A DNA stretch of 64,000 nt, taken from NCBI RefSeq assembly GCF_029589435.1, contig NZ_JARRAG010000002.1:5084001-5148000 (forward strand). The letters are read 5' to 3'. Positions 54,076-61,601 of the stretch are shown here, piece by piece; position 1 is the stretch's first letter; every line of letters begins with the position of its first letter. A program made the position numbers and the translations under genes. Under the pieces are notes generated by a model. That model did no database searches. It saw nothing but the letters and a program-made list of their open reading frames with translations, and was not told the origin of the DNA. The stretch is from Paludisphaera mucosa (GTDB lineage Bacteria; Planctomycetota; Planctomycetia; Isosphaerales; Isosphaeraceae).

Positions 54076-54332
54076 CCAGAAGAGCGTTTTCGGAGTGGTG
54101 GTCGCCCGGCGATCATGATGGCATCGTATTGAGAAAGATCCGGGCGCAGGAACCCTTACTTCCCACCATACGACACGATGCCCGAATGGATATTCTCCCG
54201 CCCAACAACGAAGCCGCGGGACTCAGGGGTCGACCGGCGTGATGGCGGACCGCCCCCGGGGAGGAACCACGTCGGCGGACGCGGATTTCGAGTTCCCGGC
54301 TTCCTATTCGGGTGAGGGGAGACGGTCCATCG

Positions 54333-54989
54333 ATGCTGGAAGCCCAGGGATTCGAAATCGTCGAACGGGTGCTCGGCACCGACGCGTGCGAGACGCTCGC
54401 GGCCTCGGCCGTCGCCGCCGGGCGGTCGTCGGCCGGGACGCGGAACCTGCTGGCGGAGCCCTGGTGCCGGTCGCTGGCCGAGGCGCTTCGGCCCGCCCTC
54501 GCGCGGTTGATCCCGGCGTCGTTCGCGGGCGTGCAGTGCACGTACTTCGAGAAGTCGCGGAAAGGCAACTGGCTCGTTCCGATGCATCAGGACCTGAGCA
54601 TCGCCGTCTCGGAACGCGTCGAACATCCGGACCTACGCGGCTGGTCCGAGAAGGAGGGGGGCCTGTTCGTGCAGCCGCCCGATTCGTTGCTGGCCGAGCT
54701 GCTGGCCGTGCGGGTGCATCTTGATCCCTGCGGCCTCGACGACGGCCCCCTGCGCGTCGTGCCCGGCTCGCACCGGCTGGGCCGGATCGACGCCGAGTCC
54801 CTCCCGGCCGTCCGCCGAGCGACGCCCGAGGTCGCCTGCGTCGTCGATCGCGGCGGCGTCCTGGTCATGCGGCCCCTGCTCCTGCACGCGTCCTCCAAGG
54901 CCACGGGGACCGGCCGCCGCCGCGTGCTCCACTTCCTCTTCGGCCCTGCCGAGCCGCCTTGCGGCCTGCGGTGGAGGCACGTCGTCTGA
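54333..54989 (+). CDS. Phytanoyl-CoA dioxygenase (PhyH)-like protein
   Basis: 218-residue Fe(II)/2-oxoglutarate-dependent oxygenase-like protein of the PhyH family. Iron-binding residues visible are H85 and D87 (MHQDLSI) and H185 (PLLLHASSK), followed by the arginine-rich GTGRRRVLHFLFG that would bind 2-oxoglutarate. The core strand pair RVVPGSHRLG is typical. The ATG at 54333 has GGGGAG about 11 nt upstream; a GTG 21 bp earlier is an alternative. PhyH relatives hydroxylate many small molecules, so the substrate is open. It ends just before a promoter-like block for the next gene. Confidence 0.85.
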   Translation: MLEAQGFEIVERVLGTDACETLAASAVAAGRSSAGTRNLLAEPWCRSLAEALRPALARLIPASFAGVQCTYFEKSRKGNWLVPMHQDLSIAVSERVEHPDLRGWSEKEGGLFVQPPDSLLAELLAVRVHLDPCGLDDGPLRVVPGSHRLGRIDAESLPAVRRATPEVACVVDRGGVLVMRPLLLHASSKATGTGRRRVLHFLFGPAEPPCGLRWRHVV

Positions 54990-55012
54990 AGCGATCTTTC
55001 TCGAGTGCCCGA

Positions 55013-55041
55013 TCGCCTCCGGGTCGGGCTCCGATTATCAT
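55013..55041 (+). promoter_or_regulatory. Promoter-like block, copy 1
   Basis: TCGCCT (55013-55018), a 17-bp spacer and TATCAT (55036-55041) lie 80 bp upstream of the membrane peptide gene. The same hexamers with the same spacing recur at 58496-58524; the sequence around the -10 is 19/21 identical (55029-55049 against 58512-58532). Confidence 0.5.
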
Positions 55042-55120
55042 CCGGCGGGTCGGGCGGAATCTCGTCGATTTTTGCGGATCGAGACCCGACGGCTTCATCA
55101 CCCTGAAAGAGGCGGGATTC

Positions 55121-55414
55121 ATGGCGGAGGAGAGCAAATCGGTCGGCTGGGTGGCGGCGATGCTGGCCTTGCTGGTCGCGTATTTCGGCTGGGGGTTCCT
55201 GGCCGCCGACTATTTCCAGCACGACCCGACCGGCGACGCGGAGAAGGCCAACTTCTGGATCAACTCCGTCACGCAACTCCCCAACCTGCCCGGCGTGCTG
55301 AGCTACGGCTTCCGCGAGCGGCTGTGGATCGTCGGCCTCGTCGTCGGCCTGGAAGTCGGGGTCCTGATCCTCTGGCTCGTGCTGAGGAAGCTGGAGAAGG
55401 AGCTGTCGCGCTGA
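55121..55414 (+). CDS. Small two-helix membrane protein, copy 1
   Basis: 97-residue protein with two membrane helices (about 9-29 and 68-90) and a periplasmic or outside loop between them (TGDAEKANFWINSVTQLPN). The tail RKLEKELSR is cytoplasmic-type. The ATG was chosen because AAAGAGG lies upstream and the helix begins soon after; the longer frame is basic and starts inside the previous gene. A shortened relative is found at 59129: residues about 47-97 match its first 55 residues (SVT..PGV..ERxWxxGLVVGLxVxVLIL). It precedes the GspE-like gene by 81 bp and is probably co-transcribed. No family is recognised. Confidence 0.7.
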   Translation: MAEESKSVGWVAAMLALLVAYFGWGFLAADYFQHDPTGDAEKANFWINSVTQLPNLPGVLSYGFRERLWIVGLVVGLEVGVLILWLVLRKLEKELSR

Positions 55415-55495
55415 GAGCGGCCTCGACGGAGGCCGTCGCGAGGCCGCTCTTGTAGGCCATGCGGCACGGCTCGCGATCGACGACCCGGAGGGCTC

Positions 55496-56128
55496 ATGGC
55501 GGACGTCGACGAGGCGGACGAGGACGAGATGGATCGGCTCCTCGACGAGTTCTTGCGCCCGGGAAGGGGAAGGTTGGGGAGACGGGCGGACGGCGGGTGG
55601 TTCGTGGACGCGGCCGATCTGGCGGGATTCCTGAAGCTCCCCGCGCCCGCCAAGCTCGTCATGATGGTGCTATTGCTCTGCCTGAAGGATCGGGCGACCG
55701 AGGTCCACTTCCACCCGACGATCAGCGGGGACGACGAACCGGGGTATCGGATGTGGTACGTCGTCGACGGCGCGTCGCACGAACTCGTGCCGCCGCCCCG
55801 CGAGGTCGGGCCGGCGATCGCCGCCGAGTTGAGGCGGCTTGCGGGCCTGCATGCCTGGCGCGCACGTCTCGCCGGCCGCCTCCGCGCCGCGGCCGATCGG
55901 CTCGACGGCCGTCCCCCCGGGCCGGCCTCGGGGAGGTTCCACATCGCGACCGCCGCCTGGTCGCTCGAAGTCGCGGCGACCTTCCATCCGTCCAGAGCCG
56001 GCGACGGGATCGTCCTCGCCTTCGGCCCGTCCGAGGTCGATCCTGCGCCCGAGGCCCAGGAGCAACTCCGCCTGATGATGGGGGCGCGGCCCAGGTTGTT
56101 CGGCGACTCTCCTGAGGACCCGGCCTGA
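55496..56128 (+). CDS. Protein resembling the GspE/PilB N-terminal subdomain, lacking the ATPase core, copy 1
   Basis: 210-residue soluble protein. After an acidic head it has KLVMMVLLLCLKDRATEVHF, then YRMWYVVDGASHELVPPPRE, then a helix and a last strand set RFHIATAAWSLEVAATFHPS. This order matches the N2 subdomain of GspE/PilB/PulE-type secretion and pilus ATPases (ASDIHFEP, RYRVDGxLxEMxPPP, then GGRxVDLRVSTLP). No Walker A, Asp box or Walker B follows, and the protein ends after a short charged helix. It is therefore a stand-alone version, perhaps a regulator or structural adaptor. GGAGGG precedes the ATG. Copy 2 lies at 59378-60031 with about half of residues conserved. Confidence 0.65.
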   Translation: MADVDEADEDEMDRLLDEFLRPGRGRLGRRADGGWFVDAADLAGFLKLPAPAKLVMMVLLLCLKDRATEVHFHPTISGDDEPGYRMWYVVDGASHELVPPPREVGPAIAAELRRLAGLHAWRARLAGRLRAAADRLDGRPPGPASGRFHIATAAWSLEVAATFHPSRAGDGIVLAFGPSEVDPAPEAQEQLRLMMGARPRLFGDSPEDPA

Positions 56129-56172
56129 CGCGACGCTCCCGGGAAATTCGGCCTGCCCGCCCGTCAGGATGA

Positions 56173-56191
56173 AAATCAATGACTTTGATTT
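56173..56191. promoter_or_regulatory. Inverted repeat upstream of the di-heme cytochrome gene
   Basis: AAATCAA (56173-56179) and TTGATTT (56185-56191) form a perfect 7-bp inverted repeat with a 5-nt spacer in an AT-rich patch, with a -10-like TAGAAT at 56216-56221. The arms resemble an FNR-type half-site in reversed order, so a regulator site is possible but its owner is unknown. The rest of 56129-56394 is non-coding. Confidence 0.4.
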
Positions 56192-56394
56192 GTATGATCA
56201 CGAGCCCGTGAGCCGTAGAATCTCTGGTCGTCGTGCAAATCGAGGGTGGCCGTCGGTCGATTTTCGTGGTCGCGGGCGGCGTCGGCGTGATGCGCCTGGT
56301 CGTCGGGTTTGCGTTGCGGGGGACTGGCGGGGGCTTCCGCGCCCGAGGTTTCGACGACCGCTTTCCCCGGGCTTCAAGCGATCGGAGCAAGCTC

Positions 56395-58422
56395 ATGGAC
56401 GTCTGCGGGATGGCGAGCGTCTGGGGTCGCGGCGGGGTCGTCGGGTTGGTCGTCGCCCTGGCGTTCCCGGGCCTCCTCGACGCGGCGGACAACCCGCGGA
56501 ACGTCGACCTCGGGCCGGGCGTCGCCGTGGTGAAGTCCCTCGAACAGAACTGGACGGACGAGGAGTCGAGCTGGTTCTACGACGTGCCGCAGGGGTCGCG
56601 GCTGGTCCCTTACGATTGGTTCCTGCACCTGGAACAGGCCGGGTCGACGGAGCCGTTCCGCGACCCGAAGCATATTCGGGCCCTGGGATACATCCCGCGG
56701 AAGCCGGCCGCGGGGAATCCCGACGGCCTGCCGATAGGGTTCGTCAAGGACGGCCCCGACGAGGACGGCACCCCGATGATGGGGCTGACCTGCGCCGCGT
56801 GTCATACGAATCAGATCAAGATCAAGGGGACGCCCTATCTCATCGACGGCGGGCCGTCGCTGGCGGACGTCGAGATCTTCCTGAAAGAGCTGGCCGCGGC
56901 GCTCCGGGCGACGGCCGACGACGACGCGAAGTTCGGGCGGTTCGCGGCGACGCTCCTGCCGCCGGGGGCCTCGCACGACGAGAAGGACGCCCTGCGCGCC
57001 GGCGTCCGGTCGGTCGCCGGGCAGCGCGAGGGCTACAACGACCGCAACCTGTCCGCGTCGGGCCGGGCCCGGTTCGGCCCCGGCCGGGTCGACGCCTTCG
57101 GCGCCATCTTCAACGAGGTCTCCGCGACGTTCCTGGGCATCCCCGAGAACGTGCGGCCCGCGAACGCGCCGGTCAACTATCCATGCCTGTGGGACGCCCC
57201 CCAGCACGATCGGGTCCAGTGGAACGGGGCGGCGGAGAACAAGGTCTCGCCCCTGGGGCCGGTCCTCTTCGGGACGTCGGACGTCGGCGCGCAGGGACGG
57301 AACGCGGGCGAGGTCCTCGGCGTCTTCGGCGGCGTGGAGATTAACTCCCACGAACTCCTGATCCCCCGGCGCTACGCGTCCACGGTCGACCGGGCGAACC
57401 TCATCAAGATCGAGGAGTCGTTGAAGGGCCTCTGGTCGCCGCAATGGCCACGGGACGTCCTCGGCGACATCGACGCGACCGCGCGCGGCCTGGGCGAGGC
57501 CGTATATGCGGCGAACTGCGCCGGGTGCCACGAGAGCATCGATCGCAAGTCGCCCTCCCGCCGCGTCGTCGCCCGGATGTCGGACGAGGGGACTGATCCC
57601 AACATGATCCGGAATTTCGGCCGGATGGCCAAAACCGGCCGCCTGGAGGGACGCCGCCGGACGCTGCTGGGGCTGGCCCGCTTCGGCCGGACCGAGTCCG
57701 TCGGGGTCATCCTGAAACACGTCGTGGAGCGTGTGATCCTCGACCCCACGCTCAAGCCGCGCTCGATTGCGGACGCCCTGGCGAGGGCGGCGAAACTCGG
57801 GAATCCGTCGGACGCGATCGATTCGCTCAACCCTGGCTACCGCATGACGGCGACGATCGAGCTGGGCGACCGGAAGCTGTTCGGCCGGTTCGATTCGCTC
57901 GTGAAGGACGGGCAGGCCCTGATCGTGGACGGCGCCCGCTTCCACCTGATGCCGAAGGATCGCGACGTCGACGCCCTGGGAGTCGGCGACGACCTGATGG
58001 ACCTCCGCAGCCAGGACGGCCTCCACGCGGCCCTCGCCCGGCTGCAAGGCGACCTCGCGCCGGAGCCGGCCGACTCGCCCCAGGCCGCCGACCAGCCCGG
58101 CAAGGTCGTGATCAAGAACGCGACCGCCAGGATCGCCTACAAGGCGCGGCCGCTCAACGGCGTCTGGGCGACCGCCCCCTACCTGCACAACGGCTCCGTC
58201 CCCAGCCTCGCCGAACTGCTGAAGCCCGCGGCCCAACGCGTCAAGACCTTTCACGTCGGCGGCCGGGAATTCGACCCCGAGGACGTCGGCTTCCTTGACG
58301 ACCCCTCCCAGCCGCTCTTCGACACCCGCGCCGACGGCAACTCCAACGCCGGCCACGAATACGGCGCCGACCTGACGCCCGAAGAGCGGAAGAACCTGCT
58401 GGCGTTTCTGAAGTCGCTGTGA
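56395..58422 (+). CDS. RoxA-like di-heme c-type cytochrome (cytochrome peroxidase/oxygenase family)
   Basis: Exported 675-residue protein with a signal peptide (about 1-30). The first heme motif is CAACH at 133-137 and the second CAGCH at 375-379. The N-terminal region has FYDVPQGSRLVPYDWFLHLE and the C-terminal region GVWATAPYLHNGSVPSL, both typical of the large di-heme cytochromes that include the rubber oxygenase RoxA; bacterial di-heme peroxidases are more distant relatives. Substrate is therefore open: polyisoprene cleavage, peroxide or another oxidation. The ATG at 56395 has GGAG upstream; an earlier in-frame start at 56233 gives a poor signal. It lies between the two GspE-like modules. 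Confidence 0.82.
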   Translation: MDVCGMASVWGRGGVVGLVVALAFPGLLDAADNPRNVDLGPGVAVVKSLEQNWTDEESSWFYDVPQGSRLVPYDWFLHLEQAGSTEPFRDPKHIRALGYIPRKPAAGNPDGLPIGFVKDGPDEDGTPMMGLTCAACHTNQIKIKGTPYLIDGGPSLADVEIFLKELAAALRATADDDAKFGRFAATLLPPGASHDEKDALRAGVRSVAGQREGYNDRNLSASGRARFGPGRVDAFGAIFNEVSATFLGIPENVRPANAPVNYPCLWDAPQHDRVQWNGAAENKVSPLGPVLFGTSDVGAQGRNAGEVLGVFGGVEINSHELLIPRRYASTVDRANLIKIEESLKGLWSPQWPRDVLGDIDATARGLGEAVYAANCAGCHESIDRKSPSRRVVARMSDEGTDPNMIRNFGRMAKTGRLEGRRRTLLGLARFGRTESVGVILKHVVERVILDPTLKPRSIADALARAAKLGNPSDAIDSLNPGYRMTATIELGDRKLFGRFDSLVKDGQALIVDGARFHLMPKDRDVDALGVGDDLMDLRSQDGLHAALARLQGDLAPEPADSPQAADQPGKVVIKNATARIAYKARPLNGVWATAPYLHNGSVPSLAELLKPAAQRVKTFHVGGREFDPEDVGFLDDPSQPLFDTRADGNSNAGHEYGADLTPEERKNLLAFLKSL

Positions 58423-58441
58423 GGGCTGGTTCCCCTCGCCC

Positions 58442-58471
58442 CATCCCAGCGGCCTTGCGGCCTGGGGGATG
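58442..58471. terminator. Hairpin after the di-heme cytochrome gene
   Basis: CATCCC (58442-58447) pairs with GGGATG (58466-58471), with GGCC-TTGC-GGCC as an inner stem, 20 bp after the cytochrome stop codon. No T-tract follows. Confidence 0.45.
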
Positions 58472-58495
58472 CCACGCCGTCACGGACGCTTTCGC

Positions 58496-58524
58496 TCGCC
58501 TCGGCGGCGGCCTCCGACTATCAT
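58496..58524 (+). promoter_or_regulatory. Promoter-like block, copy 2
   Basis: TCGCCT (58496-58501), 17 bp, TATCAT (58519-58524). Same hexamers and spacing as at 55013-55041, with near-identical bases around the -10. It lies 75 bp before the anchored-protein start at 58600. Confidence 0.5.
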
Positions 58525-58599
58525 CCAGCGGGCGGTTTGTCGGACGCGAGGATGTCCCTCGCCGGCCGATTCCGCGGCGGGTTGGATGAGGAGGTGGTG

Positions 58600-59055
58600 A
58601 TGCGACTGTGGCGCAAGGCGCTCCTGATCGGGCTGGCCCTGGGCCTTTCGGCCTTCCTGGGCGTCAGCGTATGGGGCGTCCGAGTCTATCGGCATCAGCC
58701 GGCGGACGCCGCCAGGGCTGCGGAGCAGTTCGCCGACCTGGCGGTCGTCCGGTCGGACGTCGCCGGCTCGTACGCCCGGATCGCGCCGGAGTTCCAGAGG
58801 ACGATCTCGGAGGAGAGGCTGGGCGACGCGGTCGCCAAGATGCACCCGGCGGGCCGGCCGAAGGAAGTACGCGCGACCGAGTACGAGCCGATGCCCGGGC
58901 AGGCGGCCATGATGATCTTCCTCAAGGGGACGCGCGGCGACGAATCGTTCTTCTACCGCTTCATGATGCTGGGCGATCAGCCCTCGGGCTATCGCGTCGG
59001 CGGTTTCTGGCGGGGGAGCGGGCCTTATCCGCCCTCGGCCCGCAAGGCTCTGTAG
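58600..59055 (+). CDS. Membrane-anchored small protein of unknown function
   Basis: 151-residue protein with one N-terminal membrane helix (about 7-27, LLIGLALGLSAFLGVSVWGV) and an outside alpha/beta domain. The pattern SYARIAPEFQRTISEERLGDAV followed by strands MMIFLKG and FFYRFMMLG looks like small NTF2/DUF4019-type folds but is not assigned. GGAGG lies 5 nt upstream of the ATG at 58600, better than the in-frame earlier starts. It is preceded by a copy of the promoter-like block and followed by the second GspE-like module, 73 bp away. Confidence 0.72.
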   Translation: MRLWRKALLIGLALGLSAFLGVSVWGVRVYRHQPADAARAAEQFADLAVVRSDVAGSYARIAPEFQRTISEERLGDAVAKMHPAGRPKEVRATEYEPMPGQAAMMIFLKGTRGDESFFYRFMMLGDQPSGYRVGGFWRGSGPYPPSARKAL

Positions 59056-59128
59056 TCGGTCGATCCCCGACGTCGAATTCGGCGATCGGCTCGCATCGAT
59101 ATCCATCTCACGGGATAGGGCGAGACTT

Positions 59129-60031
59129 ATGGTGGAGGTGGCCAACCTTTGGATGCACTCCGTCACGCCGCTCTCGATCTTTCCCGGCGTGATGGGCTTC
59201 GTCCTCCACGAGCGGATGTGGCTCCTGGGTCTGGTCGTCGGCCTGCAAGTCGTGGTCTTGATTCTCCGGCCCTTGTGGAAAACTCTGAAAAGGAGTCGTC
59301 GCGGTGAGGCCGGCCTCGCGCGGTCGCTCCCGCGAGCGGAGCGTGCCCGTTCGCAGCGTCCGGGTGGGGGAGGGCTCATGGCGGACGACGCTCTCACGCG
59401 AAGAGATCGCAGGAGGTTGGGCAGGCGTGTGGGCGGTGGATGGTTCGTCGACATGGACGAGGGCGTCGAAGGCGCGTCCGTCATGGCGCCGACCGGCAAG
59501 CTCGTCTTCATGGTCCTCCTGCTCTGCCTGCAGGACGGGGCGAGCGAGGTCCATTTCCAGCCGTACCTCGACGAGGGCGGGGACGGCGAACCGTGCGACG
59601 ACCCCTATGAGGACGGCGCGAGCGGCGGGCTGCGTTACCGGCTCTGGTACGTCATCAACGGAGAGCTGCACGACCTGGTGGCGCCGCCGCGGCATCTCGC
59701 CCCGGCGATCGCGGATGAGTTGAAACGCCTCGCGGGCTTGAAATCCTGGCGTGGGCGGCTCGCGGGCCGGCTCCGCGCCGCGGCCGATCGGCTCGACGGC
59801 CGTCCTCCTGCGCCGGATTCGGGGACGTTCCGCATCGGGACGGCGGAATGGTCGATCGAGGTCGCGGCGACGTTCCATTCGACCGTGGCCGGCGACTGGT
59901 CCGTCCTCGCTTTTCGGACGGCCGGGGTCGATCCGTCGACCGAGGCTCAGGAGCAGCTCCGACGGATGATGGAAGCGCGGCGCAAGGCGCGCGGCGAGAC
60001 GGGAGAGCAGCCCGCGCCGGACGCGGCCTGA
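59129..60031 (+). CDS. Fused membrane helix plus GspE/PilB N-terminal-like domain, copy 2
   Basis: A 300-residue frame in which a shortened membrane peptide (residues about 1-58, one helix about 28-48) runs without a stop into a protein matching copy 1 of the GspE-like module. The body shows VHFQPYLDEG, YRLWYVINGELHDLVAPPRHLA and FRIGTAEWSIEVAATFHST. In copy 1 a TGA ends the membrane peptide; here the matching TGA (about 59304) is out of frame, and an indel explains the fusion. ATG 59378 also has GGAGGG exactly as in copy 1, so a separate 217-residue protein may be made instead. The first membrane helix of copy 1 is missing. The ATPase core is absent in both copies. Confidence 0.6.
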   Translation: MVEVANLWMHSVTPLSIFPGVMGFVLHERMWLLGLVVGLQVVVLILRPLWKTLKRSRRGEAGLARSLPRAERARSQRPGGGGLMADDALTRRDRRRLGRRVGGGWFVDMDEGVEGASVMAPTGKLVFMVLLLCLQDGASEVHFQPYLDEGGDGEPCDDPYEDGASGGLRYRLWYVINGELHDLVAPPRHLAPAIADELKRLAGLKSWRGRLAGRLRAAADRLDGRPPAPDSGTFRIGTAEWSIEVAATFHSTVAGDWSVLAFRTAGVDPSTEAQEQLRRMMEARRKARGETGEQPAPDAA

Positions 60032-60959: not shown

Positions 60960-61109
60960 GAGTCGCTCGGGGTTGGCGGCGGGGGGCGTTGCGTCGTCCG
61001 ACGATCCAGTCTAACGGCGCACGCGACGGAGGTCATCGCCGCCGGGTATCATCGACGCGGAGTCGGGACGGGTTCCGCCGGTCTCACCAGTCGAACGGGG
61101 AGGTGCGTC

Positions 61110-61601
61110 GTGGCCGATTCGCCGAGAACGTCGTGGCACGTCGCGCGAGGGCTCGCCGCCGCGGCGGCGGGCGCCGCGGTCGGGGCGATTGCGCCGGTGG
61201 CGTTGATGGTGGGGTTCACGGCCTGCCGATGGATGGCGGAAGGGGCGCCCGAATTCGACCGTCGGCTCGACATCCAGAAACTCCGGAGCAGCCTGGTCTA
61301 TCCGATGGTCGGCTGCGCCCTGGTCCTGGCGTGTGCGGGCTGGGCGACGCTCGGGCCGCCGGGGTTGCACCGCTTCCCGGGGACGTTCGCCATCCTGGCC
61401 GCATCGGCCGTCTTCGGCTGGACGATCCTGGGCGGGATGTTTCTGGCGCCCCTGACTCATGAGGACAGCCCGGTGCATCCCATGTTCGAACCGGCCCGGC
61501 TGGCAGTCTTTCTCGCGCCGCCGATCATCGCGGCCGTCGTCCTGTCGGCGGTCCGTGCGCGGGCTGCGTCAGCGGAACAGGCGCCTACGGCGCGCGGGTG
61601 A
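61110..61601 (+). CDS. Membrane protein of unknown function
   Basis: 163-residue protein with four predicted membrane helices (about 12-36, 64-82, 90-108 and 128-147) and a short charged loop between the first two (FDRRLDIQKLRSS). The GTG start at 61110 has GGGGAGG 5 nt upstream. TATCAT at 61047-61052 upstream resembles the -10 of the promoter blocks, but the -35 is not shared. It is divergent from the ATP-grasp gene and converges with the proline-rich gene across a perfect hairpin. No family recognised. Confidence 0.7.
   Translation: MADSPRTSWHVARGLAAAAAGAAVGAIAPVALMVGFTACRWMAEGAPEFDRRLDIQKLRSSLVYPMVGCALVLACAGWATLGPPGLHRFPGTFAILAASAVFGWTILGGMFLAPLTHEDSPVHPMFEPARLAVFLAPPIIAAVVLSAVRARAASAEQAPTARG

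Follow-up and report, generated by a model that had tools for sequence, protein, structure and literature searches.

Segmental duplication as the probable origin of two near-identical promoter blocks in Paludisphaera mucosa

We consider it highly probable that two near-identical promoter blocks in Paludisphaera mucosa are explained jointly by a segmental duplication, a gene replacement in the second copy, and a basal promoter that both copies share by descent and without a dedicated regulator. The blocks lie in a 64,000-nucleotide stretch of contig NZ_JARRAG010000002.1 (positions 5,084,001 to 5,148,000), which we refer to as the window. The duplicated segment would consist of the last ~54 nt of a PhyH-like gene, the downstream promoter, a membrane-peptide gene, and a PilB/GspE-like gene, and it would have been duplicated in this lineage. 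A cytochrome peroxidase-like gene now separates the two copies, designated A and B (Table 1).

Table 1. Features of the two copies and their surroundings. Positions are those of the window, except for the dispersed repeat, which is given by contig and position. G003 is a congener taken as Paludisphaera soli JC670.
Feature	Position	Strand	Remarks
PhyH-like dioxygenase gene	54312..54989 (start 54312 or 54333)	+	Pfam PhyH, E = 4.6e-16
Putative promoter block A	55013..55049	+	-35-like TCGCCT, 17 bp, -10 TATCAT, up to the predicted start-site region
Membrane-peptide gene, copy A	55121..55414	+	97 aa; G003 orthologue 85% identical
PilB/GspE-like fragment protein, copy A	55496..56128	+	210 aa; by eye, without an ATPase part
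Di-haem cytochrome c peroxidase-like gene, between the copies	56395..58422	+	NCBIfam CytoC_perox, E = 4.3e-172
PhyH-like 3'-end relic, non-coding	58430..58481	+	41/52 identical to PhyH tail
Putative promoter block B	58496..58532	+	TCGCCT, 17 bp, TATCAT, up to the predicted start-site region
Replacement stretch	58533..59133	+	601 nt, against 190 nt at 55050-55239 in copy A; includes the anchored-protein gene
Orphan membrane-anchored protein gene	58600..59055	+	151 aa; AGGAGG ribosome site by eye
Copy B, membrane-peptide C-terminus in frame into PilB/GspE-like fragment	59129..60031	+	300 aa
Places of the GGCCCTTCGGGCC repeat	L011:12329, L018:2802, L022:5339, L023:1149 and 4724		

A pattern search of the window revealed exact copies of TCGCCT-N17-TATCAT at 55013-55041 and 58496-58524, and the pattern was absent from 100 shuffles of the window. 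Around the -10 hexamer, 19 of 21 bases are the same (55029-55049 versus 58512-58532), and the ungapped comparison of the two entire blocks, beginning at the -35-like hexamer and extending eight bases beyond the -10, gave 31 identical bases out of 37. These results bear out the original prediction of two such blocks with a 19/21 core; both were found where they had been placed, and the match is well above chance. The genome-wide search that had been proposed as a check returned exactly two exact matches in the whole 8.2 Mb genome, namely the two blocks of the window, both upstream of genes, and none for the reversed control. Both blocks are intergenic and gene-facing, block A lying before the membrane-peptide gene and block B before the anchored-protein gene. 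That two GC-rich intergenic stretches came to resemble each other by chance around a common -10 is extremely improbable. Single 19/21 pairs do arise in simulated stretches of 14 kb (0, 0, 2, and 1 in four Markov runs), but none of these runs contained a pair of at least 29/37. Furthermore, no other sequence in 464 kb of the genome, searched on both strands, matched the 37-mer at more than 25/37, and the block is collinear with two other homologous blocks.

The collinear blocks were delineated by blastn of the two regions, in which three blocks, occurring in the same order in both regions, were the three best of 10 matches. The first pairs 54940-54986 with 58436-58481 (36/47, E = 1e-3), the second 55010-55049 with 58493-58532 (33/40, E = 2e-6), and the third 55240-56106 with 59134-59997 (620 identical and 193 mismatched positions, 76% without gaps, E = 3e-92). 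A repeat search likewise matched 55240-56024 to 59134-59915, in a piece of 300 nt (76% identity), one of 142 nt (77%), and one of 74 nt (82%). Because MAFFT set the promoter against the anchored gene when both whole segments were aligned, identities were taken from local alignments; they amounted to 79% for the PhyH tail (41/52), 78% for the C-terminal part of the membrane peptide (131/169), and 78% for the PilB-like gene (447/575). At 84% (31/37), the promoter block is not significantly above 78% (P = 0.27), and all homologous blocks fall in a range of 76-84%. The promoter block is thus not significantly more conserved than the rest of the duplication. The regions thus contain several collinear homologous blocks of similar divergence, as befits a segmental duplication. 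Since one such event would explain all three blocks, a separate copying or keeping of the promoter is needless. The original prediction had the promoter kept or copied on its own; however, the block sits between two homologous blocks in the same order. Most likely, the promoter came along with the segmental duplication, and the notion that it was copied on its own is most likely wrong. The accompanying claim of dissimilar sequence between the blocks proved correct for the leader and first gene part behind each block, but not further out, where both sides are homologous.

The PhyH-like gene contributes its final ~54 nt (54933-54986) as the left end of the duplicated segment; they match the relic beginning about 8 nt past the stop codon of the cytochrome gene. 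No shuffled pair out of 2000 attained the alignment score of this PhyH tail (81 versus 73 nt). Of 25,705 real stretches, taken from the window and from 20 other pieces of the genome, one did, and it was the relic's own place. In a comparison of ~200 nt on each side, the score was attained by 2 of 200 shuffled pairs. Against a duplication speaks that the relic appears, by eye, able to fold into a hairpin; it might be a terminator whose likeness to the PhyH tail is coincidental. Moreover, the identities date the duplication inconsistently: the C-terminal part of the membrane peptide of copy A is closer to G003 (141/165) than to copy B (131/169), whereas the PilB-like gene of copy A is closer to copy B (447/575) than to G003 (341/490).

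In G003, the membrane-peptide gene comes after the PhyH-like gene on one contig, and the PilB-like fragment adjoins an ATP-grasp gene on another. One such locus each was found, and the two parts lie at the ends of the two contigs, where a second copy could be hidden. The membrane peptide was matched in 6 of 45 family genomes, twice in P. mucosa itself and once in each of the other five, with two of these five matches being partial or weak. In a further genome (G001), the PhyH-like and ATP-grasp genes are about 5.4 kb apart on one strand, versus opposite strands in P. mucosa, and neither the membrane peptide nor the PilB-like gene has a match in the sequence between them. For the cytochrome gene, the best match among five other genomes of the genus was that of G002, with 44% identity over residues 32-432 and 63% over residues 580-675. 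A scan of genome contigs with the copy-B protein yielded no relative; the membrane-peptide alignment matched four loci there, three from genomes already found and one weak match in Flavobacterium.

Over residues 50-126, the PilB/GspE-like protein of copy A shares 49% identity with a PilB-like frame of 656 aa in the same genome (G000:C1:1470328). Its NCBIfam GspE/PilB matches (E = 5e-4 and 2e-3) are far below the cut-off, and no Pfam match was obtained. Copy B retains, at 59378, the start site of the second gene of copy A; despite this inner start site, a fused 300 aa protein may have arisen there through the duplication. The short paralogues encoded at 55496-56128 and 59378-60031 resemble only the pre-ATPase region of PilB/GspE as present in the 656 aa frame, and by eye neither displays a Walker motif. 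They are possibly stand-alone pilus-motor fragments.

Copy B lacks the leader and the initial 40% of the membrane-peptide gene and has in their place a stretch with the orphan anchored-protein gene. Neither local alignment nor blastn detected significant similarity between this stretch and the replaced part of copy A. The anchored protein was found in 1 of 45 family genomes, its own, with no match in the other 44. Among 392 genomes of the phylum, with at most nine candidates scored per genome, two weak matches appeared besides its own (E = 3e-4 and 7e-4), and in Pfam the protein matched DUF4864 at E = 0.006 only, which is below the cut-off. A derivation of the anchored N-terminus from that of the membrane peptide was considered and received no clear support, with p values of 0.29 and 0.715 for the DNA and 0.062 for the protein N-termini. 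The whole proteins gave p = 0.022, stemming from a 15-residue match elsewhere than the N-termini.

Because the homologous block ends about where transcription would start, the anchored gene lies directly behind the copied promoter. The promoter would now read into this gene and probably onward into the copy-B remnant, and the orphan planctomycete gene may have come under an existing promoter after the duplication. A tentative reading, to which we give somewhat less than even weight, is that the spare promoter acted as a landing place: the orphan gene would have been put at the edge of the start site, displacing the old leader and gaining expression by takeover. If true, this would be a clear example of how a new gene comes to be expressed from a duplicated promoter.

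To assess the blocks as promoters, we drew on 1.264 Mb of the genome in which genes had been called by a purpose-made simple codon model (85% called coding). Promoter-proximal intergenic TAnnAT hexamers were codirectional with the gene in 147 cases versus 56 in the opposite orientation. TATCAT itself gave 13 versus 3, and 33 of its 47 occurrences were intergenic. The orientation bias is partly general, since all TAnnnT hexamers, taken as a control, gave 371 versus 219. Counts for TACCAT were 15 versus 6, with 40 of 73 occurrences inside genes, and for TATTAT 0 versus 5. In the 464 kb part, of which only 81% was called coding, 12 of 15 TATCAT hexamers were intergenic. Based on its intergenic and codirectional counts, TATCAT appears to be an ordinary -10 variant of the genome's TAnnAT type. 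The blocks thus have a sigma-70-type -10, of the hexamer type of their own genome, intergenic and codirectional. A third and last TATCAT of the window (61047-61052), in another context, likewise precedes a gene (near 61110) and has the same orientation as that gene.

A recognisable -35 was not found. The -35 consensus is TTGACA, which the promoter scanner also uses; TCGCCT agrees with it at 3 of 6 positions (by eye) and is a weak -35, and the scanner called neither block. The spacing of 17 bp is right. Given the -35, the blocks would work like a sigma-70 promoter and are no certain member of that class. In G003, TACCAT occurs 48 nt past the PhyH stop codon (by eye), compared to 46 nt for TATCAT here, and the -35 and the leader upstream of the membrane peptide differ from those of P. 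mucosa. With 120 occurrences of TAYCAT on both strands of the 1.264 Mb, a chance recurrence at the same place in the congener is unlikely. An ordinary -10 variant here and TACCAT at the corresponding place in the congener make a working basal promoter likely. The upstream regions of more distant orthologues (G035 and G018) contained no equivalent block by eye. The matches listed in our literature searches on planctomycete promoter motifs, Paludisphaera promoters, and promoter conservation after duplication included nothing useful.

The two blocks might also be alike for a reason other than promoter function, as a protein-binding site, an RNA element, or the end of a mobile element. The weak -35 and the prediction of the start sites from sequence would be compatible with this, but direct or inverted repeats of at least 12 nt are absent from 58400-59300, the match ends about at the expected start site, and in the congener only the -10 is conserved, so that we regard such a function as very unlikely. 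Being intergenic, in the right orientation, with the genome's -10 type and a congener -10 at the same place, blocks A and B are probably real promoters. Genome statistics and the one congener suggest a basal promoter with a TAnnAT -10 and a weak -35, most likely served by the main sigma factor. For the -10 elements of Paludisphaera, this is a small addition to the evidence.

A regulon would be expected to have more such blocks in front of other genes, and searches with the exact pattern and the 21-base core returned none. Even when up to three mismatches are allowed, the core occurs in the P. mucosa genome only in the two blocks. In 45 family genomes it occurs at 27 places; besides the two blocks these are 25 places, each with three mismatches; the reversed control gave 12, so that the other places, unsorted by position, are about twice the control. 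The hexamers with two mismatches allowed gave 231 matches in the P. mucosa genome versus 71 for the reversed control, again unsorted by position, and we attribute this excess to composition. With both the core and the exact pattern occurring only twice, there is no evidence here for a regulon. Among side observations, a third CCGAYTATCATCC site of the genome, lacking the GC-rich flanks, lies beside a gene that looks by eye like an ArsR-type regulator gene, and a dispersed palindromic, intergenic-looking repeat around GGCCCTTCGGGCC occurs at five places in 464 kb and was also seen by eye in contig L060 of a congener.

The original prediction had further inferred shared control. On the corresponding reading, the promoter block would have been copied or kept alone to place the two genes under one dedicated regulator. 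Two observations are in line with it: downstream of the two blocks, neither the leader nor the initial coding part has significant DNA similarity, and all 12 hexamer bases are unchanged between the blocks, all six differences falling elsewhere (P = 0.076). Yet homologous blocks of similar divergence flank the promoter on both sides in the same order, and the genome has no further site for either the core with up to three mismatches or the exact pattern, which renders this explanation very improbable. What stands of the claim is a shared basal promoter: basal expression of both units, shared by descent, is plausible from the sequence, whereas a dedicated shared regulator is unsupported, with no further regulon member in our genome-wide searches. 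The duplication with its promoter is a matter of ordinary genome evolution and reveals no new control system; of modest interest is that an orphan gene may have taken over a spare promoter.

With a sigma-70 housekeeping promoter, the blocks have in common the 17 bp spacing and a -10 of the gene-upstream, codirectional TAnnAT class; they differ in their -35, TCGCCT, which is far from TTGACA and is not kept in the congener. Segmental duplication with takeover of the promoter by a newly placed gene is a known kind of event. A tandem-type duplication of this kind resembles the present case in its collinear homologous blocks, in the promoter inside the copied unit, and in the new gene directly behind it, and differs in that the copies are now separated by a cytochrome gene of 2 kb.
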